Shown here in pieces: positions 3,640 to 18,797 of a stretch of 23,721 nucleotides of DNA (positions within the stretch are counted from its first letter, which is position 1; each line of letters opens with the position of its first letter). Source of the DNA: Bacteroidales bacterium. Its GTDB lineage: Bacteria > Bacteroidota > Bacteroidia > Bacteroidales > UBA932. The stretch lies in the NCBI GenBank assembly GCA_016283985.1, contig JAEENZ010000077.1:1-23721 (forward strand), read 5' to 3'. The notes below the pieces were generated by a model. It was not told the DNA's origin and did no database searches. It saw only the letters and a list, made by a program, of their open reading frames with translations. The position numbers and the translations under genes are program-made.

Positions 3640-3670
3640 TTGCATTCTTCGGCAGAGTTTCCTACCTTTG
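3640..3670 (+). promoter_or_regulatory. Promoter of the seven-gene receptor/peptidase operon
   Basis: TTG (3640-3642) is followed after 20 bases by TACCTTTG (3663-3670), an exact TAnnTTTG -7 box. Initiation would fall near 3677, some 13 nt before the ATG at 3690. This is the clearest promoter of the window by motif and spacing. Confidence 0.65.
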
Positions 3671-3676
3671 CCGAAG
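3647..3676. promoter_or_regulatory. Perfect dyad overlapping the operon promoter (candidate operator)
   Basis: CTTCGGCA (3647-3654) and TGCCGAAG (3669-3676) are perfect 8-bp inverted arms separated by 14 bases. One arm sits in the promoter spacer; the other covers the end of the -7 box and the start site. It could bind a dimeric regulator. Alternatively, as RNA from pheS it would form a hairpin, but no clean U-tract follows at once. Confidence 0.4.
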
Positions 3677-3689
3677 TAGTGTTTTATTT

Positions 3690-6479
3690 ATGAAGAAGTT
3701 TCTCCTCCTCATATGCCTTCTTTTGCCCATATCGGAAACGGTTTGGGCGCAGTCTTTCAGCATGTCCGGGCGCGTCGTGGACACCGAAGGCTCGGCTGTG
3801 GAACTTGCAGTGGTTTCGCTCAACAAATCCATCTGGGCAACCACCGATAAGAACGGAAATTACACTCTCTCCAATCTCAAAAAGGGAAAATACGAATACC
3901 AGGTATCCTTCGTAGGATATAAAGACATCACCGGCAGCGTTGAGATTTCCAATAACACCATTTTGAATTTCACCCTGCAGTCCCTCAGCCTCGAGCTGAA
4001 CAGCGTCACGGTTACCGCCGAGCGTGAAGATATGGGCTCCAAGTCGGTTATCAACGAAGAAGCCGTGCGGCACCTGCAGCCCAAAAGCGTGAGCGACCTT
4101 CTGCAGCTTGTGCCCGGAAACCTGGCCAAGAACCCCAACCTTAATGAGCTCTCGCAGGCTACGGTCAGGGAGATAGAACCGAGCGCCGGGGCCTCCCTGG
4201 GCACATCCGTCATAGTCGACGGCACGCCCCTCAGCAACGATGCCAACCTCCAGGCCATCGCCTCCACCCGTTACGGCTCTGCCTCCGGAACCCAGACCGA
4301 TGGCATGAGCGACCAGACTACGGCCGGTGGCGGAACCGACCTTCGCACCGTCAGCGCGGGCGTCGTGGAATCCATGGAGGTCATCAGCGGAATCCCTTCC
4401 GCCGAATACGGCAACCTCACGTCCGGCGTGGTGATAGTGAAAACCAAGGCCGGGCGCACCCCGTGGGAGTTCAAATCGCAGGTGGATCCCAACTCCAAGC
4501 TGGCCTACATAGGAAAGGGCTTTGCCTTGAAGAAGGGCGGATCCTTCAATATTGGCGGGGACTGGAGCCAGAGCTACAGCGATCCGCGCCGGAAGTATCT
4601 CGGCTACGACCGTCTTACCGCCGCGGGAGGTTTCTCCAAGGTGTGGAATAGGGCCAGCCTCAACATCAAAGGCTCGGTCTATTCCAACGTGAACAACCGC
4701 AAGACGGATCCGCAGCTGGAAGAACTGGAAATCAACTTCACCAACAAGAACGTGGGCCTGCGCCTTTCCGCCAACGGAAGCGTGCAGCCGAAGACTTCGC
4801 TGATCACATCCCTGGACTATAATTTCTCTACGCAGGTCTCGCGCACGGAAGACATACATATAAATAAGGTATGGAGCCCGGACGGTGCCGTAACGGACAC
4901 CCGCGTGAGCGGAATCCAGCAGGCCTACCAGAAGATTCGCCCCTACAACGCCGAGTACACCCTTCACGGCATCCCTGTGAACATCTACGGCCAGCTGGTG
5001 GCCGGGAAGTATTTCCAGATAGGCGAGAAGGACTACAATAAAATCAAGGCAGGTGTCGAATATACGATGGATGCCAACCGGGGCAAGGGCCTTTCCTACG
5101 ATATAGAAACCCCTCCACAGGCCGCTTCGACCCATACGTTGAGGCCCCGCGCCTACAAGGATATCCCTGCCCTGAACACCGCGTCGGTATTCATCAGTGA
5201 CAAGGGCCGTTTAACCCTGGGTGGAACGGTATTAAAGTCGGAAATCGGAGTACGCGCATCGAATCTGTTCCTGAATGCCGAAAAAAGCGGCGGAAACAAG
5301 GGCTACTTCGTGGTAGAACCCCGCGTGAACCTGTCGCTGGGCATTCTGGGCGAGGCTCTGTCGATAAACGCCGGCTATGGTATCTCCAACAAGATGCCTA
5401 CCCTCCTGTATCTGTATCCCGAGCCCACATACTACGACTTCATCTGCCTCAACCGCTATAGCGAAGCCTCCGGCACCGGGCTGGCCGTCATCAACACCCA
5501 AATCGTAGAGGACACCTTCAATCCGGACCTCAAGCCCGCCAATGCGGTCAAGAAAGAACTCGGGTTCAGTTTCAAGACCAAACCCGTGAGCGGATTCGCC
5601 ACGTTCTTCCACGAAACCCACACGAACGAGTTCGGCTACAAAGGCCAGCTCTATTGGGGGCGCTTCGCACAGTATGTCATCCCCGATGGCGCAACGGATC
5701 TCGCGCTGGAAGGAAACGATGTGACCTTCAACCTCGGAGGCACGCGCCAGACGGCCGCCAAGACGGATAAGATGGAATTCTCCAGCTGGAGCCGGCCCGA
5801 CAACACGGCCAGGAGGATCAAGTATGGCATAGAATACGGGCTGGACTTCGGGACCATCAAGCCGCTCAGGACATCCGTCAACATCAACGGTGCGTGGTTC
5901 CATATCCAGCGGATCAGGCAGACCACCAGCACATCCTTCCGCAGCAAGCTGGATAAATATGCCCCCACCATGCCGTCCGGAAGCGGCAAGGTGCAGGACC
6001 GTGTGAACACGAGTTTCCGTTTTATCACCCACATTCCTGAAGTAAAACTGGTGCTCACCACGACCGTGCAGGTTGTCTGGTACGAGTCAGAACGGACTGT
6101 CTATCTCGACGAAAACGGCACCCCGAGAGCATACGACTACAGCTATCAGGGCAAGGATTACCTTGCGGTGGAGCCTGTGGGATTCTACGATACCGACGGC
6201 AAATTCACCGAATGGAATGCTGCTACAATGAACGCGAACCCTGAGTACAACTTCATGATGGACCGCTATTTCACGTATGGTTTCCTGCCGGACGTGATCG
6301 AGCCATGGGCCCTGCTTAACATAAGGCTCACGAAGGAGATAGGCTCCCACGCGCAGATATCGTTCACGGCCAACAATGTTACCAATACCAGCAGGTATCA
6401 TACGAACAAGAACACGAACACGAAGACTCAGCTTTATCCAAACATGTATTTTGGTGCAGAACTTAAAATCAATTTATAA
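3690..6479 (+). CDS. TonB-dependent outer-membrane receptor
   Basis: The protein has 929 residues and a signal peptide (MKKFLLLICLLLPISETVWA). Residues about 22-105 form a carboxypeptidase-regulatory-like beta-sandwich (GRVVDTEGSAVELAVVSL...GNYTLSNLKKGKYEYQVSFVGY). The plug follows from about 110 (SVTVTAERED, VSDLLQLVPGN, SVIVDGTPLSND, VVESMEVISGIPSAEYGN), and then a long beta-barrel ending in FGAELKINL. Receptors of this type import large or scarce ligands with TonB-ExbBD energy. There is no SusD-like partner; the following gene is a DUF4876-like lipoprotein. It is first gene of a seven-gene transcript, 12 bases ahead of the next start. The ligand cannot be read from the sequence. Confidence 0.93.
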   Translation: MKKFLLLICLLLPISETVWAQSFSMSGRVVDTEGSAVELAVVSLNKSIWATTDKNGNYTLSNLKKGKYEYQVSFVGYKDITGSVEISNNTILNFTLQSLSLELNSVTVTAEREDMGSKSVINEEAVRHLQPKSVSDLLQLVPGNLAKNPNLNELSQATVREIEPSAGASLGTSVIVDGTPLSNDANLQAIASTRYGSASGTQTDGMSDQTTAGGGTDLRTVSAGVVESMEVISGIPSAEYGNLTSGVVIVKTKAGRTPWEFKSQVDPNSKLAYIGKGFALKKGGSFNIGGDWSQSYSDPRRKYLGYDRLTAAGGFSKVWNRASLNIKGSVYSNVNNRKTDPQLEELEINFTNKNVGLRLSANGSVQPKTSLITSLDYNFSTQVSRTEDIHINKVWSPDGAVTDTRVSGIQQAYQKIRPYNAEYTLHGIPVNIYGQLVAGKYFQIGEKDYNKIKAGVEYTMDANRGKGLSYDIETPPQAASTHTLRPRAYKDIPALNTASVFISDKGRLTLGGTVLKSEIGVRASNLFLNAEKSGGNKGYFVVEPRVNLSLGILGEALSINAGYGISNKMPTLLYLYPEPTYYDFICLNRYSEASGTGLAVINTQIVEDTFNPDLKPANAVKKELGFSFKTKPVSGFATFFHETHTNEFGYKGQLYWGRFAQYVIPDGATDLALEGNDVTFNLGGTRQTAAKTDKMEFSSWSRPDNTARRIKYGIEYGLDFGTIKPLRTSVNINGAWFHIQRIRQTTSTSFRSKLDKYAPTMPSGSGKVQDRVNTSFRFITHIPEVKLVLTTTVQVVWYESERTVYLDENGTPRAYDYSYQGKDYLAVEPVGFYDTDGKFTEWNAATMNANPEYNFMMDRYFTYGFLPDVIEPWALLNIRLTKEIGSHAQISFTANNVTNTSRYHTNKNTNTKTQLYPNMYFGAELKINL

Positions 6480-6491
6480 TATCAAAGTATT

Positions 6492-7688
6492 ATGAAGCGT
6501 TTCTTTACAATTTTGGGCATCGTGGCTGTAGCAGCCACTGCCGTGCTCTCCACCTCCTGCAATAAGGAAGGGACTGCAAAGAAATTCACCCTCACGGTGA
6601 ACATCACCCTCCCCGAGGGCGTAGAAGTAAGCGACATAGTTGCCGAAGCAGCAAAGGGCAACAAAGTCACTTCCCTGGAAGTCGTTACTACCGAAAAGGC
6701 AGTCACCGCAAGCGCATCCCTTCCCCAGGGAGACTACAAAGTTTCTGTGAACGGTAGCATCTCTTCTGCAAAGAAAGCTGTCGGCGCGGCTGAGGTTTCT
6801 CTCTACGAAGATCAGACTATTACAGTTGAGCTCGCAGTGGCTTCCGCTTCTCCCATCATCATCAAGGCTGTCCAGTACACCCCCGGCAAGATGGCCTACA
6901 TCCAGCCTCTCAGCGATACCTGGATCGAACTTGTGAACAATTCGGATGAGGTCCAGTATCTCGACCAGATCGTCCTTATCGGTGGAATGGGCCGTCAGAC
7001 CAAAGCCAACGCATGGCAGGCAAACGGCTACGAGAGCCTCTATGGTGGCGTAACCCAGAGCCCCGTTTATGCTTTCCCCGGCAACGGAACCGATTATCCC
7101 CTGCAGCCCGGCCAGAGCGTCGTCGTTGCAAACGCCCCTATCAATCACACCGCACAGGGCGAGGGCTTTGAGAACTGCGCAGACCTTTCCAAGGCGGACT
7201 GGGAGTTCTATGCTTCCTACAACGCCAAGGATACCGACTATGAGGGCATCCCCAACATGGAACTCGTACACTATCCTTTCACCAGCCAGCTGAACTGGGG
7301 CCAGAACTTCTTCGGATGGGCCGGCCTTATCGCCAAGCTTCCCGAGGGTGTCACTCCCGCTCAGTATGCGGCAGACGAGAAGAACCTCATGACCACTCCC
7401 GGAACCACTTCTTCCTACAAGTATCTGATGATTCCCAGCGAGTATGTCCTCGATGCCATCGACGTTTGGGAAGCCGATGCTGAAGAGCACTATCCTACCT
7501 TCCTCCCCGTCGACGATGCAGAAGGCATCCTTGGACCTGCAGCTTGGAGCGGAAAGGGTGTACGCCGTAAGGTTACCAAGATCGAGAACGGCCGTGCTTA
7601 CTACAAAGACACCAACAAGTCTTCCGCAGACTTCATAGTCGGAAAGGTTGTTCCCGGTGCTGTTCCTACCGCAGTTGATGCTGAATAA
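6492..7688 (+). CDS. DUF4876-like lipoprotein
   Basis: The protein has 398 residues. The signal peptide ends in a lipobox-like LSTSC with Cys23 as the lipidated residue. Residues about 35-120 look like a small beta-sandwich (FTLTVNITLPEGVEVSDI...YKVSVNGSIS). From about 128 the sequence IIIKAVQYTP...DTWIELVNNSDEVQYLDQIVLIGG resembles the opening of a lamin-tail-like Ig fold. From memory, it matches DUF4876 proteins of Bacteroidota, found beside TonB receptors; I could not search. A plausible role is a ligand-binding lid or partner of the receptor, which is inference. Its last 11 bases overlap the next gene, suggesting translational coupling. Confidence 0.75.
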   Translation: MKRFFTILGIVAVAATAVLSTSCNKEGTAKKFTLTVNITLPEGVEVSDIVAEAAKGNKVTSLEVVTTEKAVTASASLPQGDYKVSVNGSISSAKKAVGAAEVSLYEDQTITVELAVASASPIIIKAVQYTPGKMAYIQPLSDTWIELVNNSDEVQYLDQIVLIGGMGRQTKANAWQANGYESLYGGVTQSPVYAFPGNGTDYPLQPGQSVVVANAPINHTAQGEGFENCADLSKADWEFYASYNAKDTDYEGIPNMELVHYPFTSQLNWGQNFFGWAGLIAKLPEGVTPAQYAADEKNLMTTPGTTSSYKYLMIPSEYVLDAIDVWEADAEEHYPTFLPVDDAEGILGPAAWSGKGVRRKVTKIENGRAYYKDTNKSSADFIVGKVVPGAVPTAVDAE

Positions 7689-9249
7689 ACTTCATATTAT
7701 TTGTGCAAGCCTTCTCCTGCCGATGCTTTTCGCACCGGCGGGGGAAGCCTTTGCGCAAGTATGGCACCAGGAGAGAAACAATGGTATAAAGAACGTCCGC
7801 AGCGGCAGTTCTTCCCCCGTTTCCCTCCAATACAATCCAACGGATTCCTGGAACGTTGCAAACGCATCCTGGAACTATGAAAACGGGGATTTCCACCGTC
7901 CGGACAATCCTTCCGGGAAAAGTGAACTGGACCTTGCCGTGGAGGAACTCGGCACTCTGAAGCAGATCCGCACGGCGGGCAGTCTAAGATACCGTAACAC
8001 CAAAGACTTCAACCGCAACTGGAATTCCCTTATCGGCAACGACCCCGACAACCCATATGTTATCTGCGATACCCTTGCAGACAATTCGGTAACCGAACGT
8101 TTCGATATCGGTGGCGCGCTCAGCTGGCAGATCGACGACAAATGGATCGTTGCCGGCAAGATAGGTCTTACGACCGCAACGCTGACCGATTCGAAGGACC
8201 CCCGTCCGAAGAATGACATTTCCAGAATCCCGCTGACCCTCGGCGTCGAGCGCAGCCTGGGCAAAAACTGGCGCGTCGGACTGTTCGGAGGTGCGGAACT
8301 GTTCGTGTCCAAGTTCACCAACTATCTTGAATACGGCCAGAAGGCGTATCGCTATTATAAGATGAAGGGAATGGGCGATTTCTTCGCCTTCAGTTCCTCG
8401 GAAAGTTCGAGCGCCCCGCGCGACTATTCCGGAACTACTTTTTCTGCCGGCCTGAATGCCACCCTGAATGCTACGGGCTTCGACAATTTTGCCGAGGCGG
8501 CATTCCATAGCGGATATGAAAACGCCCGGGACGGAGGCTCTGCGCACGAATGGAAAGCGGGAGACTATAGTTTTACCCGCATCTGCTTCCAGGACAGGCT
8601 GGACCTCAAGGGAGACCTTCGCCAGAGCATCGTCCTCAAGGCTGAAATCAAGATGACTCAAGGATTCTGGTACGACCAGAAACAGAAAATCGACACCGAG
8701 CACGGCAACATTTCCTATTATGAGGTTATGAGCCGCTACAAGAACAACGATGCCGCCAGGCTCATCGCCGGGGTTGGATACAGTATTGGCAAAGACGGTT
8801 CGTGGAATACCTCCGCAGGCGTGAAGTTCAATTCCGAAAACTTCACCCACTATTCCGACGGAGACCCCTATACCCAAGCCTGGAATAAGCTGATCATCGA
8901 TGCCGAAGGCTGGAAAACCCTGCCGGTCGGCCGTAATGTCCTGGACGTTTCTGCGGGTGTCGGCTACGTGCTGCCTCTTGGAGAGGCTGTTTATGCAAGC
9001 GGATTCAACGGCGCGGCAAAAGATGACATAACGGACATCTACGTCGATCCCATATTCGCTTATGAGACAACCGGAAAACTCTCCGCCTTCTTCCGGGCCG
9101 ACTGGGTATTCGCTCCCGTCAAGTCGCTCTGCCCGGGCATATTCGTGAAGGGGTCGATGATCAAACAGACGGGGGCTGCTACGCAGTACCCCGCATTGGA
9201 AGGGACTTCGTTCTTCGGATTGTCCGCAGGCGCCTTCCTTAAATTTTAA
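7678..9249 (+). CDS. DUF6850-like outer-membrane beta-barrel protein
   Basis: The protein has 523 residues. The signal peptide MLNKLHIICASLLLPMLF...GEAFA is cleaved before Gln27. The mature chain alternates polar and aromatic residues in strand-sized blocks and ends in FFGLSAGAFLKF, a C-terminal Phe beta-signal for barrel insertion. There is no plug domain, so it is not a second TonB receptor. From memory it fits DUF6850, a barrel family seen with DUF4876 and a TonB receptor. I start it at 7678, inside the end of the preceding gene, because the signal peptide begins there; an in-frame upstream ATG at 7648 would add a non-signal extension. It might be a secretion pore or anchor for the peptidases that follow. 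Confidence 0.75.
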   Translation: MLNKLHIICASLLLPMLFAPAGEAFAQVWHQERNNGIKNVRSGSSSPVSLQYNPTDSWNVANASWNYENGDFHRPDNPSGKSELDLAVEELGTLKQIRTAGSLRYRNTKDFNRNWNSLIGNDPDNPYVICDTLADNSVTERFDIGGALSWQIDDKWIVAGKIGLTTATLTDSKDPRPKNDISRIPLTLGVERSLGKNWRVGLFGGAELFVSKFTNYLEYGQKAYRYYKMKGMGDFFAFSSSESSSAPRDYSGTTFSAGLNATLNATGFDNFAEAAFHSGYENARDGGSAHEWKAGDYSFTRICFQDRLDLKGDLRQSIVLKAEIKMTQGFWYDQKQKIDTEHGNISYYEVMSRYKNNDAARLIAGVGYSIGKDGSWNTSAGVKFNSENFTHYSDGDPYTQAWNKLIIDAEGWKTLPVGRNVLDVSAGVGYVLPLGEAVYASGFNGAAKDDITDIYVDPIFAYETTGKLSAFFRADWVFAPVKSLCPGIFVKGSMIKQTGAATQYPALEGTSFFGLSAGAFLKF

Positions 9250-9260
9250 ATAACGGAAAC

Positions 9261-11063
9261 ATGAAACTCCGAACGATGATGGCAGGTCTGGCTGCCATTC
9301 TTTTGATAAGCATATCAGCCTCCTGCTCCCGCCGGGCAGGTGTTGCCGTAGTTATAGACCCTGTAAGTGAACGCGAAGCGGCAAAGGAACTTGCCGATTA
9401 CGAGAAGGCCCTTCGCGAGGCGGACGGATACAAAGTTTATCGTCTTTGCGAGGACTGGGAAAGCCCGGATGCCATCAAGGCCCAACTGAAGGATCTATAC
9501 CAGAAAGGAAAGATACGCGGAGTCGTCTTTGTTGGCGACATCCCGATCCCGATGGTTCGCGACGCGCAGTTCTTCACCAGCGCGTTCAAGATGGACCAGG
9601 AGCGCCCGCGCAAAGAATCCAGCGTGCCCTCGGACCGTTTCTACGACGACTTCGACCTGGAATTCGAATACATCGACAAGGATGACGACGGGGATCCCTT
9701 CTTTTATTACAGCCTTGCATCAGGCCGCGACGTGCCCCTGCAGCCGGACATCTTCAGCGGCCGCATACGTCCCACCGACACCGAGGTCTCTACCCGTTAC
9801 GAAAAACTCCGTCTGTATCTCACGAAGGCCGCCCGCGCACACAGGAACCCGGACCGTCTGGATCACATTTTCGTGTTCAACGGCTCGGGCAGTATAGCGG
9901 AGAGCAAGCCTGCCCACATGGATGAGCAGATGTCCCTCAGGGAGCATCTCCCCTGGATGAAGACCCTGCCCGGAGCCTTCACATACATGGACCACACGGA
10001 CCACGATCCGCTCAAGTGCCGCATCCAGAACGAGCTCATGCGCCCCGAACTGGACATTGCGATCCTGCACCACCACGGGGATTTTGATACCCAGTATTTC
10101 AAGATAAAGAAAGAGGACAACCTCACGCTCGAGGACTTCGGCAACTACCGCCCGGAGGCGAAAATAGTCATCATGGACGCCTGCTACAACGCTGCGTTCA
10201 ACAACAAGGACTGCATCGCCAACGAGTATATATTCCAGGAAGGAGGCACCTTGGTCGCATGGGGCGGAACCGTCAACGTGCTTCAGGACAAATGGCCCGA
10301 CGAGTTCCTCGGTCTCGTGGCCCAAGGATATCCCATAGGCGATCTAAACCGTTTTTCTCCCTACCTCGAGATGCATATAGTGGGAGATCCCACGTTCACT
10401 TTCAAGAAAGAGAAAGTCTGCCGTTCCGCCGATAAGGCCTGCCTCGACATACGCTATGGAAAGAAGAGCCCGGACAAGCTCCTCAAGATTCTGAAGACTT
10501 CCCCCGTCTCCCTCGAAAGGCACGAAGCTTTCAACACGATTATCCGCAGTTGCGATCACGCCACCCGTCTGAAGGCTATAAAGATAGCCATCGAAGACAG
10601 CGCCGAGCAGATCCAGCGCGAGGCTGTGAACTGCTTTGCTCCGCTTGGAGACCCGGAACTGATACCGCTGGTAGCCCGCATGGCAACCCTCAACAACGCC
10701 TCGGCCCGAGTGCGACAGAACACCTATGAGAGCCTCCAGTTCTTCCCCCGGGAGCAGATGCTCTCCGCCATAGAGGCTTCTCTTGACAGCCTTGCCTGCC
10801 AAAGTGCGGACACGACATATTTCGAGAAGATCCGCAGCATAGCCAACACCCGCTGCGGAACCTGGGACGAGGACATCGACAAACTCATCAGCGGTGAACT
10901 GAGTGAAAAGTGGAAGATGTTCCTGTCGAGATCTTTCCGCATCTATCTCCCCGCCTACCGACTGCGCGAAGTGCGCGACTTTGCCGACACCTGCTCCAAC
11001 GAAGTGCTGGCCTCAAATATAAAAGAAGCCATTGAATGGCACCGACTTGCATATACATACTGA
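9261..11063 (+). CDS. C25-like (gingipain-type) cysteine peptidase lipoprotein with helical repeats
   Basis: The protein has 600 residues. A signal peptide ends in ISASC with Cys22 as the likely lipid site. Residues about 26-385 form a caspase-like clan CD fold. Catalytic His is likely His272 in LHHHGDFDTQY and Cys is Cys308 in IVIMDACYNAAF. The 36-residue spacing is close to that of gingipains. Other conserved blocks are VGDIPIPMVRDAQ (91-103), FSGRIRP (165-171) and VGDPTFTF (374-381). Residues about 400-600 are helix pairs like HEAT repeats (AVNCFAPLGDPELIPLVARM). The cleavage specificity is unknown. It is the fourth gene of the operon, 11 bases after the barrel gene, and paralogous to the next gene. 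Confidence 0.82.
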   Translation: MKLRTMMAGLAAILLISISASCSRRAGVAVVIDPVSEREAAKELADYEKALREADGYKVYRLCEDWESPDAIKAQLKDLYQKGKIRGVVFVGDIPIPMVRDAQFFTSAFKMDQERPRKESSVPSDRFYDDFDLEFEYIDKDDDGDPFFYYSLASGRDVPLQPDIFSGRIRPTDTEVSTRYEKLRLYLTKAARAHRNPDRLDHIFVFNGSGSIAESKPAHMDEQMSLREHLPWMKTLPGAFTYMDHTDHDPLKCRIQNELMRPELDIAILHHHGDFDTQYFKIKKEDNLTLEDFGNYRPEAKIVIMDACYNAAFNNKDCIANEYIFQEGGTLVAWGGTVNVLQDKWPDEFLGLVAQGYPIGDLNRFSPYLEMHIVGDPTFTFKKEKVCRSADKACLDIRYGKKSPDKLLKILKTSPVSLERHEAFNTIIRSCDHATRLKAIKIAIEDSAEQIQREAVNCFAPLGDPELIPLVARMATLNNASARVRQNTYESLQFFPREQMLSAIEASLDSLACQSADTTYFEKIRSIANTRCGTWDEDIDKLISGELSEKWKMFLSRSFRIYLPAYRLREVRDFADTCSNEVLASNIKEAIEWHRLAYTY

Positions 11064-11072
11064 TAACCTGAT

Positions 11073-13235
11073 ATGAAAACAATCCGTTTGATAATCACAT
11101 CCCTCCTGCTCCTGAGTGCCCTCGGAGCTAAGGCGGGCAATGGTTTTGCAATTGTAATCGACCCCGAGAGCTACTCCGCCGCCAAGGCGGAAGTTGACGC
11201 GTATGCCGCCGCCATCGCCAAGGCCGACGGCTACAAGGTGCAGATAATAGAGGATGTCTGGGGCGTGCCGGACAGCATACGTGCGGTGCTCAAGAGCCTC
11301 CATTCCGCCCGGCGGAACCCCATAGTCGGGGCCGTTTTCGTGGGAGACATCCCCGTAGCCATGGTCCGTGGCGCCCAGCATCTCGCCAGCGCCTTCAAGA
11401 TGGACGAGCAGAAGTATCCGAGGCATCAGTCTTCGATTCCGAGCGACCGCTACTACGACGATTTCTCGCTTGAGTTCGAATTCCTCGGGCGTGACGAAGG
11501 GACGCCTCTCTTCTACTATTGCCTGACGGCCGATGGCGCCCAGACCCTCTCCCCGGACATCTTCTCCGGCCGCATCCGTCCGATGGACGAGAACGGGAAG
11601 GTGCGCATCGACGCTCTCAAGGCCTTCCTCCTGAAAGCCGCAGACGCCCGCCTCAACCCTCCGACGATGGACCAGATGTTGTTCTTCAGTGGACACGGTT
11701 ACATTTCCGAAAGCAAGACTGCCCGCCTCGACGAGAAGCGGGTATGGCTCGAGCACTTCCCCCTCATCGACGACGGCCGCAATCACGTCAGCTACATAGA
11801 TTATTCGGACGTTGTGCCGGTCAAGCCCCACCTGATGAACGAGCTGATGCGCCCCGAACTCAACGTGGCGATGCTGCATCACCACGGGGCCCCGGATACC
11901 GAATACCTCAACGCCGCAGAGCGTCCCTACATGGTGAGCGACGCGAAGGAATATATAGTAAAGAACCTTCGCTCCCACGTATACCATGCCCGCCAGCGCG
12001 GCAAGGACTACAAGAAGATGCAGGCCGATCTCAAGGCCCGTTTCGATGTGCCGGACAGCTGGTTCAAGGATGTCTTCGACGAGGATGTCCACAAGGCGGA
12101 TTCCCTGGAAGAGGCCTCGCTGGACCTCTATATCGAGGACTTCGCCGGATACGGCTACAAGCCGGCCGCCCAGCTGGTGATCCTGGATGCCTGCTATAAC
12201 GGCTCCTACCAGCTGAACGACTGCATCGCCGATGAGTATATCTTCCAGGAAGGAGGAACCGTCGCCGTGCAGGCTAACAGCGTCAACTCCCTGCAGGACA
12301 AGTGGCATGACCGCTTCTTCGGCATTGTGGCAGCAGGCGGTTGCGCCGGCGACCTCGTGCGCTACGCCCCCTACATCGAGAGCCATCTGATCGGCGACCC
12401 GACCTTCCGTTTCGCATACTCGGGCAAGAATATCGACAAGCTTATCCAGAAAGACAGCAAGTGTGCCTGGAAGCGTCTCCTCCGCAAAGGAACCCCCGAC
12501 CAGAAGGCCCTTGCCATCGAGCATCTCTTCAGGAAGGGTGCATTGTCTTCCGCAAAGCTGATGGACATCTACAAGACTTCTCCTTATGCCGTAGTGCGCC
12601 TGGAAGCTTTCTACTGCCTGTCCCGTGCCAAGGGCGACGCCTTTGTGGAGGCCATCTGCCTTGCGATGGACGATGCCGATGAGTTTATACGCCGCATTGC
12701 CGTCAAGTATGCCGGAAAGAGCGGCGATCCGCGCCTGATTCCCAGCATGGTAAAAATGTTCCTGACCAACAACGCCACTTCCAGGATAGTATTCGACACT
12801 TCCTACGCGCTGCTCTCCTTCGACAAGGATGCCCTCTTTGCCGAATTCGACAAGCAGATCGCGGATGTTAAGATGGTGAACGCAGAGGAGGATGCCGCCA
12901 AGCTGAGGCAGTCTTTCGAAAGGTCGGCAACGCGATTCCTTGATGACCAGGCCGCTATCACCGACCCCGCTACCAGCGCCAAGGAACGTCGCACCAACAT
13001 CCGCCAGATCCGTTCCAACCTGAATTTCGGCAATGTGCCCGGGCTGCTTGAGTATCTGCAGTCCTGCACGGATGCCAAGGTCCAGGTAACTCTGCTGGAG
13101 GCCCTTGGATGGCACAGCCATGCTTGGAACGCCAGCGAAATAGCCAAGGTTGCCGAGGCCATGAGCTCCAACGACGCCCTTCCCGAAGAAGTGCGCCGCG
13201 AGGCCTTGAAGACCTGCAAGCGTATTTCAGAATGA
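11073..13235 (+). CDS. C25-like cysteine peptidase with helical repeats, second copy
   Basis: The protein has 720 residues and is a diverged paralogue of its upstream neighbour. It has a signal peptide (MKTIRLIITSLLLLSALGAKA) but no lipobox Cys, so this copy should be released rather than anchored. Catalytic residues are likely His271 (LHHHGAPDTEY) and Cys374 (LVILDACYNGSY). The gap between them is 103 residues instead of 36, due to an insert of about 67 charged, helical residues at roughly 280-350. A further HG pair occurs in FFSGHGY (205-211), where the first copy has FNGSGS. The C-terminal half (about 455-720) is HEAT-like. It lies nine bases downstream of copy one, and its stop overlaps the next start as ATGA. 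Confidence 0.82.
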   Translation: MKTIRLIITSLLLLSALGAKAGNGFAIVIDPESYSAAKAEVDAYAAAIAKADGYKVQIIEDVWGVPDSIRAVLKSLHSARRNPIVGAVFVGDIPVAMVRGAQHLASAFKMDEQKYPRHQSSIPSDRYYDDFSLEFEFLGRDEGTPLFYYCLTADGAQTLSPDIFSGRIRPMDENGKVRIDALKAFLLKAADARLNPPTMDQMLFFSGHGYISESKTARLDEKRVWLEHFPLIDDGRNHVSYIDYSDVVPVKPHLMNELMRPELNVAMLHHHGAPDTEYLNAAERPYMVSDAKEYIVKNLRSHVYHARQRGKDYKKMQADLKARFDVPDSWFKDVFDEDVHKADSLEEASLDLYIEDFAGYGYKPAAQLVILDACYNGSYQLNDCIADEYIFQEGGTVAVQANSVNSLQDKWHDRFFGIVAAGGCAGDLVRYAPYIESHLIGDPTFRFAYSGKNIDKLIQKDSKCAWKRLLRKGTPDQKALAIEHLFRKGALSSAKLMDIYKTSPYAVVRLEAFYCLSRAKGDAFVEAICLAMDDADEFIRRIAVKYAGKSGDPRLIPSMVKMFLTNNATSRIVFDTSYALLSFDKDALFAEFDKQIADVKMVNAEEDAAKLRQSFERSATRFLDDQAAITDPATSAKERRTNIRQIRSNLNFGNVPGLLEYLQSCTDAKVQVTLLEALGWHSHAWNASEIAKVAEAMSSNDALPEEVRREALKTCKRISE

Positions 13236-14593
13236 GATTTTTTGTCGCATCGCTGCTCGCACTCCTGCCTATCCTCATGACCGGGCAGGAGTTGCCTCAG
13301 TATGTCGACAATTCTTCCAACAAATACTTCCCTCCGATCATAGACCAGCACGGCGGATCTTGCGCCCAGGCATCCAGCATAGGCTACGTGTTCACCTATG
13401 AGATGAACCGCTATCTCGACAGGGATGCCTCAGCCAGCCCGGCCAACCGGTTCAGCTACCAGTTCATCTGGAACCTTGTCAACGACGGCATAGACCAGGG
13501 CGGCTTCGCCGAGGACGGACTCTTCGTGGCCATGCGTTCCGGTGCCATGACGGAAGAGGACTTTTCCACGCTCACCACCGGTCATTTCACATGGCCTTCC
13601 GGCTTTGAGAAATATCGTAACGCCCTGAGATACAGGGTGTCGCGCTTCGTAAAGTTCAATAAGGACGTGGATACTTACAAGCAGTATCTCGCCGGCAGCG
13701 ACGGCAAGCCGGGAGGCATTCTGTCCTTCTCCGGAAACTGCTACGGCTGGAACATGGTCTACGACTACGACGGTCCTTCCGGAACCGGATACAAAGCTCT
13801 TGCGACAACCCTTCCCAACGATGGCGCCCATGCTATGACCATAGTCGGCTACGACGACCTCGTAACCTACACCGATGCCTCCGGGCAGAAGCACGAGGGG
13901 GCGTTCATCGTCGCGAACAGCTGGGGAACATCCGTCCACGACAGGGGCAGGTTCTATTATCCCTACGACTTCTTCCGGGACAATACGACTATCGCCAGGG
14001 TGTTGAGCGACGACGCCATTACGGCCGAAGTCCGGTATCAGGAGCCCCGCATCCTGTTCAAACTCACCATAGAGTATACCTCGCGCAACGACCTTGCATA
14101 CAATATCGGGGCGACCGACAAGGTTTCTGCAGGAGTGCCGGACAACTATTATCTGCAGACCGGCATGAGCAACAAGGGAGGCGACCACTATATGCGTGGA
14201 ACATATGACAAGGAACCGCTCGAGTTCGCTCTGGACCTTACGGACCACATCCCTTCATCCGATCCGGATTATTGCAGGTACTTCCTCAAGATAGTCCGCA
14301 CCGCGCAGGGGAAAGAGAAGGGGACGGGATCGCTCAAGGCTCTGTCCGTGATAGATTACCGCAGCGGCACCCCGGTGGAACACAAGTACCGCGGCCATCT
14401 TCCGCAGCCCCTGGTGGATGGGGAGAACTATTTCATAATTGGGCTGGTACCCCGCTACACGGTGTCGTGCTCGTCCGTGCGGCTTGCGACCGACACGCCC
14501 CTATACATGAAGACCGCATCCGGCCAAAAGGCCAAAGTAACCATCAGTCGGACAGGCCTTAACGCCAAGTTGCAATATACCGTTACCAAATGA
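13232..14593 (+). CDS. Secreted papain-like (C1) cysteine peptidase
   Basis: The protein has 453 residues and a signal peptide (MRFFVASLLALLPILMTG). The papain catalytic set is complete and in order: Gln39 and Cys44 in IDQHGGSCAQASS, His200 in DGAHAMTIVGYDD, and Asn229 in VANSWGTSVHDRGRFYYPYDF. The catalytic Cys lies only about 25 residues after the signal peptide, so there is no room for the usual inhibitory propeptide. Residues about 260-453 look like one or two beta-sandwich domains of unknown role. The start at 13232 overlaps the upstream stop (ATGA), which supports translational coupling; longer upstream starts lie inside the C25 gene and lack a signal peptide. It probably acts outside the cell or in the periplasm together with the two C25 enzymes. 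Confidence 0.87.
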   Translation: MRFFVASLLALLPILMTGQELPQYVDNSSNKYFPPIIDQHGGSCAQASSIGYVFTYEMNRYLDRDASASPANRFSYQFIWNLVNDGIDQGGFAEDGLFVAMRSGAMTEEDFSTLTTGHFTWPSGFEKYRNALRYRVSRFVKFNKDVDTYKQYLAGSDGKPGGILSFSGNCYGWNMVYDYDGPSGTGYKALATTLPNDGAHAMTIVGYDDLVTYTDASGQKHEGAFIVANSWGTSVHDRGRFYYPYDFFRDNTTIARVLSDDAITAEVRYQEPRILFKLTIEYTSRNDLAYNIGATDKVSAGVPDNYYLQTGMSNKGGDHYMRGTYDKEPLEFALDLTDHIPSSDPDYCRYFLKIVRTAQGKEKGTGSLKALSVIDYRSGTPVEHKYRGHLPQPLVDGENYFIIGLVPRYTVSCSSVRLATDTPLYMKTASGQKAKVTISRTGLNAKLQYTVTK

Positions 14594-14934
14594 AGAAGAT
14601 ACTGTCCATAGTATTGCTGGCTGCCATGCTGATGTTGGTATCCTGTATCGACGACAGGAAAAAGGAACCCGTATTGGTCAGCGGCGAGGTGGAATTCATT
14701 TCCCAACATGGCCGTTGGACGTATATATCCCTTGAAACCGGCAAGGTGGTGGGAACGGGTTTCCTCGGCGACGAAAAATCCGATGCCGAATGGGCTCTGC
14801 GCGATGACTGGGACATCGCCATCTGCGATTCCCTCATCCGTACCAACGGTGGCACCTCGGGCCCCGGAGAGGGTGCCGCTTCGGCGGAATCTGCCACAAA
14901 AGCCCTCCCGGATACCTATCAGGAAATCTGGTAA
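14590..14934 (+). CDS. Short HmuY-like lipoprotein
   Basis: The protein has 114 residues. The lipobox LVSC gives Cys19; the following IDD is acidic, as in Bacteroidota lipoproteins exported to the cell surface. WTYISLETGKVVG (43-55) and DDWDIAICDSLIRTNGGTSG (72-91) match the N-terminal part of the HmuY family, whose Porphyromonas member binds haem. HmuY proteins are about 200 residues, so the C-terminal half is missing here, and no continuation is visible in other frames downstream. It may therefore be a truncated or minimal version, and haem binding must not be assumed. The start overlaps the preceding stop (ATGA). It is last gene of the operon. Confidence 0.7.
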   Translation: MKKILSIVLLAAMLMLVSCIDDRKKEPVLVSGEVEFISQHGRWTYISLETGKVVGTGFLGDEKSDAEWALRDDWDIAICDSLIRTNGGTSGPGEGAASAESATKALPDTYQEIW

Positions 14935-15145: not shown

Positions 15146-15152
15146 CATGATC

Positions 15153-18100
15153 ATGAAGAAACTGTTAGTATTAGCCGCGTTCCTTGCTTTTGTGCCTTCC
15201 TGCACCAAGATGATGGAACAGAACACCGAACCTGAGCAGATTCAGGAGCCGGCCCAGATAGAAACAGAAGAAACGGTGGTCTTCTCCGCCACTACCGAAG
15301 GTGCGACCAAAACCGTGCTTTCGGAAGATGGAGGAGTTTATCACGTCTTGTGGGCCACGGGTGATGTCATAAACGTGAACGGAACCAACCTGACCCTTCA
15401 GAGCGAGGATCAGCCCGCCGGTTACGGCCCTGGCGAGAAGAAGGGTAATTTTGCCGGATCAAAACCCCTTGCGGCGGGATCCGGCCCCAAGTATAAGGCT
15501 GTCTATCCTAATACCCTTAGGGACAAGTACGGGTATTTCAACCTCCCCGGTGAACAACCGTACCTGGCCGGAGGCGTAGCCGCCTTCCCCATGTATGCCG
15601 AGTCCGACGATGAGAGTTTCTCGTTCAAGAACCTTTGCGGTCTGATTCAACTTAACCTGAAGGGCGATAAGAGCGTCAGCACCATATCCCTCGTGGACAA
15701 GGACCCTTCCGAGCCCAAACCGATGAGCGGGCGTTTCAACGTCAGTGCAGATGCCGCCGTGCTCACGGCCGGCACGAACGGCACCGCCCTGGTCTGCGAA
15801 ACGCCGGTGGCCCTGAACACCGAGACCTTCACATCCTTCTTCATCACCGTTCCTGCCGCCACATACGGCAAGCTGAGGATAATCATAGAGGCTTACGACG
15901 GCACCACCTGCACCCTTACCAGCAAATCTGCAGTCACTGTCGAGAGGAGCATGATCACGCCAATCAACATCTCCAACCCGAACTTCAAGAACGAGACCGC
16001 CCAGATCACCTATACTACTTCGAACACCAGTAAGATAGACAAGTACCCTGCCGGTGCCGATGCGGCAGTTTTCGGAGATGGTTTGACTGTGGTCAGCCAT
16101 AACTATAATTCAGAGACAAAAACCGGTGTAATCACCTTCTCTGGGCCCGTTACCAGCGTAGGATATCATGCCTTCCGCGGTGTCAGCAACCTGAAGACGA
16201 TGACCATTCCCAACACGGTCACGTCCATCGGGGAGCGTGCATTCGAGAGTTGCGGCAACCTGGAGAGCGTCAACTTCCCGCGTTCGCTTTCGACAATCGG
16301 CACTTATGCATTTGTCAACAGCAGCAAGTTTGTGCCGGACGATCTGTCTCATATCAACACCATCTACGCCGGCGCGTTCCAAAGCGTCAATCTAAGCGGA
16401 ACGCTCATCCTGGGAGATAATTTCACAAGAATCGACTTTGATGCCTTCCGCAACACCAAGGTTTCGGAAGTGGTAATAGATCACACCCCGGAGACCATTG
16501 GAACCGGATTGTTCCTCAACTGTACTAGTTTGCAGGAGGTATCTTTCAGTGACGATATTGAAATCCCCTCTTACATGTTCCAAAGCTGTACCAGTCTTAG
16601 TACGCTGAATTACAATGCCGATGTCAGCAGCATAGGGGAGGCTGCATTCGACCATTGCACTTCGATGACTTCGCTGACTCTCCCATCGTCGCTGACGACC
16701 ATCGGGAAAGATGCCTTCAGCTATTGCACGGGGATTGAGACCATCGTTTTCCCGGACAATGTCTCATATATCGGCAGAGGAGCATTTGCGCACTGTACTT
16801 CGCTTGAAGAACTGAATCTGCCGTCCGGACTTGCCACCCTGTATGAAAGGGAGAATTTCGCAGCCTGCACATCGCTTACTACAGTCCATTTCCCTGTTAA
16901 TGAGACCTTCCATACCATTCCCTATCTCTGCTTCGACGGATGCACGAACCTGGTTTCTGCGGACATCCCGGCAAATGTGACCAACATAAGCCAACTGGCC
17001 TTCCGGAACTGCGGTTTCACCGAGCTCCCGGAAGGATGGGGAAGGAAGTCCATCACTTATGGGGACCAACCATTCAATGGATGCCCGATAATCTCCATTA
17101 CTTTCCCGGACGACTGGACGTCCATCCCGAATAATTTCTGCTGGGGATGGAAAAGCCTGCGGGAAGTGCATTTCGGATCGGGAGTGACTTCGGTCGGAAG
17201 CAGCGCTTTCCGCGAGTGCACCGCGCTTACAGACGGGGCCAAAGTGGTAATCCCCGCCAATGTGAACTCCATAGGAAGTCACTGCTTCTACCAGAGTGGT
17301 CTCACCAGCCTGCCTTCAGGCATCAACCGTGCTGATATCACCTTAGAAAGCTATGTCTTTGCAAAGTGTCATTTTGCTTCGGTGGATGTTTCCAATTGGA
17401 CAACCATACCTCAAGGTTGCTTCAGCGAATGCAGTTCTTTAACCAGTGCAGTATTCGGCAGCTCCCTTACATCTATCAAATCCTATGCATTCTCCAACTG
17501 TTCCTTGTTAGACACCGTCTCACCGCTGCCGGCTTCTCTAAACGATATGGGCAGTTATTGTTTCTCCGGGACCGCCCTGTCCGATATCCCGGCCGGCCTT
17601 CACGATTGTACTTTCGGGGAGCATATCTTTGAAGGGACTCCTATGACAAGCATCACGATGCCGGATGGGATGACTACCGTTCCTGCCTATATGTTCGCCA
17701 GCTGCGCCAGTCTCACAACGGTCGATCTCAACGATGTCACGACCCTTGGGAATTTCGCTTTCAGTGGTTGCAGCCTCCTGAATTCCGTAACGGCTCCCGA
17801 AGTCGTCACTGTAGGGGAGAATGCCTTCTACCGCAACCATGCGCTGGTATCCATCGAATTGCCGTCGGTCGTGACCGTCAAGAGCAACGCTTTCAACGAG
17901 AGCTCGCATCTGGAGACCGTCGATCTCGGCACGCACATCGCCACCCTTGGACAGGATTGCTTCAATAACATCCAGACCATGCAGGCGGTTTATATCCGCA
18001 ATGGTGCGGCGATTGTCTCGCTCTCAACACGCTTTACCAGTTATCCCGCCCACCCGAAACCGTTGATTTATGTCCCGGAAGGGCTGCTGGATTCTTATAA

Positions 18101-18797
18101 GGGTGCTGCCGGCTGGAGCAATTACAGGGAGTATTTCCGCGGTCTTGACATAGTAGTTTCGCTGCCTCCAGTCACCTCGATGCAACTCGGCGATGGCAGC
18201 GTGCCGTACTACAGCATCCCCGGCATCATAAATGCCCTTTGCGACAACGGCGGGACCCTGACCTTCCTTGCCGACAACACCGTCGATCTGACCTTTACCG
18301 GTACGGCGACCGGGGTGGTCGACATGAACGGACACAGCCAGAACAAGGTTTTCTGGATGCAGAACACAGGCGGAAGCATCACTGTCCGCAACGGCACCTT
18401 CACCCAGACCGGCGACTGCTTCGACGGCAAGACGGGCTTTGCCGATGGATATGGCGGAACCGTGATTCTGGAAAATATGACCGTGAAGGGAACCCTGTGG
18501 ACAGACAGCCACCCCTACATTATCCGCAGCGGTGACTATAACCAGATCAGGAACATGAAGAAAAACGATGTCACCTCCGATGGCTCCGGAACGGTTACCA
18601 TCGAAGGCGGCACCTTCAAAAGCTTCTATAATTACTCGAGCAGCGGCTGGACCTACGGGGACTATTATATCTCTGGCGGAAAGTTTGCTTTCGACCCTAG
18701 AACTGCAACCAACGTCACAATAGTTGCGGGCCACTCCGTAGTGCCCAATACCGATGGCGACAGTGCGACATTCCCATATAAGGTAGTCGCCGACTAG
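15153..18797 (+). CDS. BspA-like leucine-rich-repeat surface lipoprotein
   Basis: The protein has 1214 residues. The lipobox FVPSC gives Cys17, followed by a Glu/Gln-rich linker. Residues about 40-280 resemble a fimbrillin-like N-terminal domain (VVFSATTEGATKTVLSEDG, FKNLCGLIQLNLKG, FFITVPAATYGKL). Residues about 330-995 hold some two dozen LRR_5 (BspA/TpLRR) repeats of roughly 23 residues, of type LxxIxxPxxVxxIGxxAFxxC. Residues about 1005-1214 form Gly-rich strands like a beta-helix (GGTLTFLADNTVDLTF, GSITVRNGTFTQTG, GTVTIEGGTFKSF). BspA proteins bind host proteins or other bacteria; that role here is by family only. It follows a small peptide gene and converges on the M48 gene with only two bases between the stops. 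Confidence 0.88.
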   Translation: MKKLLVLAAFLAFVPSCTKMMEQNTEPEQIQEPAQIETEETVVFSATTEGATKTVLSEDGGVYHVLWATGDVINVNGTNLTLQSEDQPAGYGPGEKKGNFAGSKPLAAGSGPKYKAVYPNTLRDKYGYFNLPGEQPYLAGGVAAFPMYAESDDESFSFKNLCGLIQLNLKGDKSVSTISLVDKDPSEPKPMSGRFNVSADAAVLTAGTNGTALVCETPVALNTETFTSFFITVPAATYGKLRIIIEAYDGTTCTLTSKSAVTVERSMITPINISNPNFKNETAQITYTTSNTSKIDKYPAGADAAVFGDGLTVVSHNYNSETKTGVITFSGPVTSVGYHAFRGVSNLKTMTIPNTVTSIGERAFESCGNLESVNFPRSLSTIGTYAFVNSSKFVPDDLSHINTIYAGAFQSVNLSGTLILGDNFTRIDFDAFRNTKVSEVVIDHTPETIGTGLFLNCTSLQEVSFSDDIEIPSYMFQSCTSLSTLNYNADVSSIGEAAFDHCTSMTSLTLPSSLTTIGKDAFSYCTGIETIVFPDNVSYIGRGAFAHCTSLEELNLPSGLATLYERENFAACTSLTTVHFPVNETFHTIPYLCFDGCTNLVSADIPANVTNISQLAFRNCGFTELPEGWGRKSITYGDQPFNGCPIISITFPDDWTSIPNNFCWGWKSLREVHFGSGVTSVGSSAFRECTALTDGAKVVIPANVNSIGSHCFYQSGLTSLPSGINRADITLESYVFAKCHFASVDVSNWTTIPQGCFSECSSLTSAVFGSSLTSIKSYAFSNCSLLDTVSPLPASLNDMGSYCFSGTALSDIPAGLHDCTFGEHIFEGTPMTSITMPDGMTTVPAYMFASCASLTTVDLNDVTTLGNFAFSGCSLLNSVTAPEVVTVGENAFYRNHALVSIELPSVVTVKSNAFNESSHLETVDLGTHIATLGQDCFNNIQTMQAVYIRNGAAIVSLSTRFTSYPAHPKPLIYVPEGLLDSYKGAAGWSNYREYFRGLDIVVSLPPVTSMQLGDGSVPYYSIPGIINALCDNGGTLTFLADNTVDLTFTGTATGVVDMNGHSQNKVFWMQNTGGSITVRNGTFTQTGDCFDGKTGFADGYGGTVILENMTVKGTLWTDSHPYIIRSGDYNQIRNMKKNDVTSDGSGTVTIEGGTFKSFYNYSSSGWTYGDYYISGGKFAFDPRTATNVTIVAGHSVVPNTDGDSATFPYKVVAD

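Follow-up and report, generated by a model that had tools for sequence, protein, structure and literature searches.

A stretch of 23,721 nucleotides from a Bacteroidales bacterium (GCA_016283985.1, contig JAEENZ010000077.1, positions 1-23,721; referred to here as the window, and called rumen-type below) carries seven co-directional genes on its forward strand, which encode a TonB-dependent receptor, a DUF4876 lipoprotein, a DUF6850 outer-membrane beta-barrel, two C25-HEAT cysteine peptidases, a papain-like C1 cysteine peptidase and a short lipoprotein, HmuY-N, that corresponds to the N-terminal part of HmuY. The gene order is conserved in relatives, the peptidases keep their catalytic residues, and the last two genes carry, at the level of their families, complementary pieces of HmuY that co-occur.

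From the sequences we infer co-transcription of the seven genes, complex formation between their products and a localisation, a ligand and an order of events along the following lines. Taken as a whole explanation, the set may be a protease-coupled TonB-dependent import operon with a split-HmuY tether, a proposal to which we give slightly less than even weight. A peptide or protein that is in short supply and probably carries iron would be taken up through the outer membrane by a unit of three proteins, namely the receptor, the lipoprotein (DUF4876) and the barrel (DUF6850). Once imported, this ligand would be cut, and its cargo freed, by one to three C25-HEAT peptidases that would be either periplasmic or attached to the outer membrane from its periplasmic side. 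The window's lineage would have gained a papain-like peptidase with an HmuY C-terminal hairpin together with the HmuY-N lipoprotein; the two HmuY pieces would associate into a palm without thumb and fingers, and the rebuilt palm would tether the C1 peptidase to the lipid anchor at the membrane. A more far-reaching version, which we hold only tentatively, is that an ancient iron-responsive machine of the Bacteroidota imports an iron-carrying protein that is cut by periplasmic C25-HEAT peptidases, and that the haemophore of one clade was split into a self-assembling protease clip, with loss of its haem-binding middle.

The gene coordinates of the first-pass annotation were exact (Table 1), as were its gaps of 12, 11 and 9 bases, its 11-base overlap and its two ATGA junctions. 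The DUF4876-like and DUF6850-like members that it named match those Pfam families, and its count of three cysteine peptidases also held, the two C25 proteins lying above the Pfam cut-off and the C1 protein being assigned through its family, with the window copy itself below the cut-off.

Table 1. Features of the seven-gene operon, in positions of the window, with Pfam E values where a family was matched
Feature	Position	Strand	Description
Promoter-like site	3640..3670	+	Bacteroides-type, TTG-N20-TACCTTTG; ends 19 bases 5' of the first start codon
TonB-dependent receptor (TBDR)	3690..6479	+	Carboxypeptidase-regulatory-like domain and plug; Plug 3.3e-9
DUF4876 lipoprotein	6492..7688	+	DUF4876 2.5e-40; relative of 4q1z
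DUF6850 outer-membrane beta-barrel	7678..9249	+	DUF6850 3.3e-71
C25-HEAT cysteine peptidase, copy a	9261..11063	+	Peptidase_C25 4.9e-9; HEAT_2 6.7e-6, just below cut-off
C25-HEAT cysteine peptidase, copy b	11073..13235	+	Peptidase_C25 1.4e-5; HEAT_2 2.7e-11
Papain-like C1 cysteine peptidase	13232..14593	+	Beta-rich domain and C-terminal HmuY-type hairpin; Peptidase_C1 0.012, below cut-off
C-terminal HmuY hairpin region of the C1 peptidase	14489..14590	+	Codons 420-453, from family profile alignment
HmuY-N short lipoprotein	14590..14934	+	N-terminal part of HmuY only; HmuY 1.5e-9

Conservation of the operon across Bacteroidota

A search with the C25 protein, with one genome taken per species and iterated profiles then applied, gave 49 loci. 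In 45 of these the genes for the receptor, DUF4876 and DUF6850 are co-directional with between one and three C25-HEAT genes, mostly with tight spacing, a count that is conditional on C25 because the loci were found through it. Three of the exceptions are cut by contig ends (L005, L011 and L043), and the fourth, L049, lacks a receptor and has C25 frames that are fragmentary. The loci span several Bacteroidales families, a Chitinophagaceae and a metagenome-assembled genome (MAG) of the Ignavibacteriaceae, and in the last of these (L047) 2.3 kb lie between barrel and peptidase. With the first four genes found together in 45 of 49 loci, chance does not explain their grouping. The first-pass annotation had named the absence of peptidases from beside the receptor in relatives as an outcome that would speak against its proposal; what we found in these C25-seeded loci was their retention.

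When relatives were taken by kinship, four of the 40 relatives of genome G019 carried C25-HEAT genes. The block lies with the receptor on one contig in G050 and G053; in G048 the contig starts in DUF6850 and DUF4876 is on another contig, and G049 has its genes scattered over separate contigs, with no match to DUF4876. DUF4876 itself was present in 7 of the 40, four of them without a C25-HEAT match. On a tree of DUF4876, from which L026, L029 and L048 were left out as near-copies of L027, the presence of C25 takes 2 changes, compared with 6.7 in shuffles, and the C1-bearing operons form one clade (12 rows, support 100/100), with long branches at the root that make the deep order unsure. The near-copies are an observation in their own right: L026, L027, L029 and L048 have a stretch of about 12 kb in common, including the C25 operon, at 99.9% identity, in records named Bacteroides bouchesdurhonensis, B. 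xylanisolvens, Butyricimonas sp. and Phocaeicola faecicola, which would reflect either a recent transfer or mislabelled or contaminated records.

The receptor matched no SusC-type model and no PDB sequence at E<=0.01, and no SusD-family partner was matched among the seven proteins at E<=0.1. The lipobox cysteine of DUF4876 is present in 32 of 32 members, and the solved structure 4q1z is the DUF4876 protein BT_1938 of B. thetaiotaomicron. Structure prediction gave a predicted local distance difference test (pLDDT) score of 83.0 for DUF4876 and, for DUF6850, a pLDDT of 83.9, a predicted template modelling (pTM) score of 0.81 and roughly 18 strands without a plug domain. Eight operon-bearing genomes hold 15 DUF6850 loci, of which eight are C25 loci and seven are receptor-DUF4876-DUF6850 triads without C25. 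Judged from protein starts, an ATP-binding cassette (ABC) transporter and small membrane genes lie within a few genes of the triads in L060, L061, L064, L065 and L066, and in L060, the sole triad locus scanned for these domains, the neighbours are PepSY-TM, ABC and DUF4857. An LRR_5 gene also stands beside the triad of L062. Because triads without C25 occur, some of them near ABC-type genes, the triad resembles an uptake unit with varying accessories, of which the peptidase would be one.

Complementary HmuY pieces in the families of the last two genes

The protein described by the first-pass annotation as an HmuY-like lipoprotein does match the HmuY family, over positions 4-49 of the 157-position model alone; it does not hold a full-length HmuY domain. 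It is not a damaged gene, because 32 homologues are equally short (92-118 amino acids, in a search limited to about 63-199); in 14 loci the HmuY-N frames run to 112-139 amino acids, that of L012 reaching a contig end. In a set of 24 (22 of the 32 plus the window and L012), all 24 keep the lipobox cysteine. We compared this family with a full-HmuY alignment of 19 proteins (18 of 30 together with L067, and without L069, another HmuY match), and it aligned to columns 18-109 with a probability of 99.3 and an E value of 4.5e-20. Homology to PF14064 is divided, its N part lying on HmuY-N and its C part on the C1 family, where it is weak in the window protein.

The C1 family was defined by the window protein and 94 of 120 among the matches listed (305 found). 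Peptidase_C1 is matched at E<=0.01 by 29 of these 95 members, and the C1 assignment rests on such matches because the window protein alone falls below the cut-off. The active site is almost invariant, with Gln in 94 of 95 (one gap), Cys in all 95, His in 94 and Asn in all 95. The tail of the family aligned to columns 174-219 of the full-HmuY profile (probability 91.5, E 8.6e-7), compared with a best E of 0.042 from 30 column-shuffled HmuY profiles, 0.55 from the reversed profile, and 0.22 and 0.25 when the C25 and barrel alignments were set against the HmuY profile. One C1 homologue, P0132, matched PF14064 (E 2.9e-6) over a nominal span of positions 62-157, and other homologues over about 108-157; against our own full-HmuY profile the hairpin of P0132 alone aligns (167-207 of 209). 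A hidden Markov model (HMM) of the tail found 56 of the 95 C1 proteins at E<=0.01, compared with none of 95 reversed sequences. At the level of the families, then, HmuY-N is an N-terminal HmuY piece and the neighbouring C1 family carries the C-terminal hairpin, so that the two are complementary, and the hairpin on the C1 peptidase is probably a docking clip.

The two pieces also co-occur. Across 50 genomes, 46 chosen for C25 and four for C1, each of 13 strong short HmuY-N matches (>=88 bits) lies directly 3' of a C1 gene; the other 11 HmuY matches score <=51.5 bits in frames of 197-522 amino acids, and the two that were read are full HmuY (L067 and L068). Among 28 distinct C1 proteins, the end of the C1 model was reached by 14 of the 14 beside HmuY-N and by none of the 14 others. 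The latter were re-fetched with longer flanks, 13 being read to a stop and one into a contig end, and showed neither a tail match at E<=1 nor an HmuY-N gene nearby.

Several points weigh against this picture. The end-reach model was built from tail-bearing proteins, the genomes were picked for C25 or C1 and not at random, and the count of 0 of 14 partly reflects a different architecture, because the 14 non-adjacent C1 proteins are larger paralogues. PF14064 is matched at E<=0.01 by just 18 of the 95 C1 members and, at E<=0.1, not by the window C1 protein; at E<=10 the tail HMM finds 89 of 95 real proteins and also 43 reversed ones; and DUF4876 aligns with the HmuY profile over its signal and N-terminal region (58.9, E 9e-5). 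The tail has diverged in the window and its close kin, where it scores 0.7-7.4 bits (7.4 for the window), and at a search size of 526 nine of the 14 HmuY-N-adjacent C1 proteins reach E<=1 and only five reach E<=0.01, these five being the outer members L012 and L079-L082. Because of these low scores, the window tail is HmuY-like by family descent more than by its own letters. Kin of G019 (and G033) encode, at L106-L119, multidomain proteins of about 800-1550 amino acids that have the same papain-like and beta-rich domains, with no HmuY tail.

According to the available part of PMC2671838, the HmuY palm consists of two sheets packed as a sandwich, sheet I (beta1, beta6, beta13-15) and sheet II (beta2-5), and the haem ligands His134 and His166 lie in beta8 and beta11, in the thumb and finger. 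Since the N-terminal strands and beta13-15 belong to one sandwich, the two pieces, with the first strands coming from HmuY-N and the last from the C1 peptidase, could rebuild a palm. His134 and His166 both fall between the two window pieces, and sequence resembling the haem-holding middle was found in neither the C1 peptidase nor HmuY-N. The positions of the haem-contacting Arg79-Tyr80 are Asp-Ser in the window HmuY-N, a placement that assumes a chain numbering of +25, which is our own and fits Arg54-Tyr55 and His109. An HmuY-type haemophore was for these reasons rejected as an identity for HmuY-N.

We favour a palm-built tether as the role of the two pieces. The main rival is that HmuY-N inhibits the C1 peptidase or acts as its chaperone, and that the HmuY pieces are the binding interface between them. 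Small inhibitors are encoded beside other bacterial cysteine peptidases, and the position of HmuY-N directly downstream of C1, overlapping it in most loci, would suit such a role, as would the co-occurrence described above. The lipid anchor suggested by the invariant lipobox cysteine is more in line with a tether than with a soluble inhibitor, however, and the shared piece of the fold is the C-terminal tail and not the catalytic domain, so that we consider this rival unlikely.

C25-HEAT peptidases, iron and the probable site of proteolysis

Both window C25 proteins belong to peptidase family C25 by Pfam profile (36.3 bits for copy a and 24.9 for copy b, with a cut-off of 23) and by their His/Cys dyad (His272 and Cys308 in copy a), each residue of which is kept in 99 of the 99 C25 copies of at least 550 amino acids. 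By eye, copy a has a probable lipoprotein signal with a lipobox-like SASC, seen in the window's clade, copy b has a plain signal peptide, and in the C25 proteins the catalytic domain follows the signal peptide almost at once. No C-terminal sorting domain of the type IX secretion system (T9SS) was detected at E<=1 in the 20 of 103 C25 frames that were scanned, both window copies included, and the T9SS translocon SprA was undetected in five of eight operon-bearing genomes, among them B. ihuae and B. xylanisolvens, three of the five being MAGs. The presence of SprA in the remaining three speaks the other way. The simplest reading of these sequences is that the C25 peptidases are periplasmic or sit on the inner side of the outer membrane, a location that would place cutting after import; import followed by cutting appears to fit better than cutting outside the cell.

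Other features were seen around the C25 genes of individual loci. In the Chitinophagaceae locus, the second of the C25 copies (L033, 12209-14422) keeps its His and Cys, but the residues around them differ, with TGHG and NSC in place of HHHG and DAC. Two Parabacteroides/Proteiniphilum-type loci have lipoprotein-like genes of 286-287 amino acids 3' of a single C25 gene (L013:12193-13053 and L014:12279-13142), and a similar gene is found in L022; the two scanned matched no Pfam family above cut-off.

The link to iron comes from homologues. In the available part of PMC10434189, iron depletion induced PG1019-PG1022 (DUF4876 and receptor) 20.8-214.5-fold, BT1933-BT1939 (HEAT protein, DUF4876 and receptor) 3.5-7.4-fold and BT3625-BT3633 36.7-128-fold, and its Fig. 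1C gives the receptor operon as upregulated in three species (PG1019-21, BT_1938-9 and a Prevotella intermedia locus). In a haemin experiment, from what is accessible of PMC10470040, a DUF4876 gene changes with the same sign as HmuY. Judging by B. xylanisolvens (L027), the BT locus presumably holds DUF6850 and C25 genes in the same order. Of the first-pass proposal, a link to iron is supported, being in print for homologues, and HmuY-type haem capture is not, because the haem-ligand region is absent.

These data bear directly on the idea of gingipain/HmuY-like haem piracy, in which peptidases would cut haem proteins outside the cell, the lipoprotein would hold the haem and the receptor would import it. 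The HmuY family match, the C25 family and the iron-induced homologues are all consistent with it, and PMC3040768 deals with a partnership of gingipain and HmuY, as far as the portion available goes. Nevertheless, HmuY-N ends short of the thumb and fingers, where His134 and His166 lie, and reads Asp-Ser at the Arg79-Tyr80 positions, no CobN/HmuS-type gene is found among the seven, no T9SS domain was seen in the C25 proteins scanned, and SprA was undetected in five of eight genomes. The gingipain parallel drawn at first is weak on the last two grounds, and we regard haem piracy as improbable.

Peptide scavenging seems to us no more probable. Here peptidases on the surface would break down protein of dietary or microbial origin, from which the receptor would import the peptides for nitrogen, with iron regulation being incidental. 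Three peptidases, one probably lipid-anchored and one beside a lipoprotein, would be in keeping with such a function, and peptide transport by RagAB is known from structure titles; against this stand the lack of a SusD-type partner among the seven proteins, the strong iron response of homologues in print and the fact that no T9SS export route was seen for C25. The least probable alternative is that the targets of the peptidases are the operon's own receptor, barrel or lipoproteins, which they would mature or regulate, much as PorU, a C25 enzyme, processes T9SS cargo: one to three C25 copies do lie beside the same outer-membrane genes, and the existence of triads without C25 would allow a dedicated partner role, but such triads presumably function with no maturation of this kind, and a papain-like enzyme was added in one lineage.

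Operon boundaries and relation to known systems

The first-pass annotation placed the operon behind one good promoter. The Bacteroides-type site is present, by what we take to be the consensus of that group, and the motif TTG-N20-TAccTTTG occurs twice on the forward strand, compared with 0.15 expected per strand of the window; it also lies above the receptor in 12 of the 34 relatives scanned. A terminator-like hairpin at 3647-3676 overlaps the site, and for this reason the promoter is likely real but not clean. After position 14934 we noted by eye a terminator-like ACCC..GGGT followed by a T-rich run, which was not listed by the hairpin scan. Past it lies a BspA-type leucine-rich-repeat gene (15147-18797), which adjoins the operon in L001 too, and a peptidase family C69 gene (410-2137, minus strand) lies at the left end of the window, outside the operon. 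Among seven rumen-type loci the window DNA is nearest to L001, a sheep-rumen Bacteroidales MAG, at 82.1% over 19 kb with flanks.

The nearest mechanism appears, by analogy, to be the protease-associated import of the Fus and Ydd-PqqL systems of Pectobacterium and Escherichia coli, whose clusters have been mapped across Proteobacteria, with other proteases beside some FusA homologues (PMC6793856, available part). Both have a TonB-dependent receptor and an exported protease in one cluster, and both have iron-responsive expression, which is here reported for homologues. The proteases there are M16 metalloproteases, whereas C25 and C1 cysteine peptidases are found here, together with an additional DUF4876 lipoprotein and DUF6850 barrel and in the Bacteroidota. 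BT1933-BT1939 and PG1019-PG1022 share DUF4876 and the TonB receptor with the window, and the BT locus also a HEAT-repeat protein; in the available part of PMC10434189 they are described as iron-regulated TonB/outer-membrane transport, and C25, C1 and HmuY-N are not named there. Triads of the BT3625-BT3633 type have the same three outer-membrane genes, with redox/ABC accessories (PepSY-TM, ABC, DUF4857) where the window has peptidases.

The Hmu operon (hmuYRSTUV) is alike in combining an HmuY-family sequence with a TonB receptor, and differs in that HmuY is here in two pieces without haem ligands and that the CobN-like HmuS and the inner-membrane genes are absent from the seven. Gingipains share the C25 domain and the His/Cys dyad, whereas the window proteins have HEAT repeats, lack the T9SS C-terminal domain, place the catalytic domain close behind the signal peptide and belong to a receptor operon. 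For each of the labels Hmu, gingipain and SusCD, at least one defining feature was looked for and found to be lacking, and the annotation of proteins of about 115 amino acids as 'HmuY family' should not be taken to imply haem binding.

Whole-protein import followed by proteolysis has already been worked out for Fus/PqqL in Proteobacteria. If our proposal is true, the idea of import then proteolysis extends to gut and rumen Bacteroidota, DUF4876 and DUF6850 acquire a testable role, and the iron-induced locus of B. thetaiotaomicron and Porphyromonas gingivalis gains a mechanism. In addition, the division of a haemophore fold over an enzyme and a lipoprotein would be an unusual natural reuse of a split protein.

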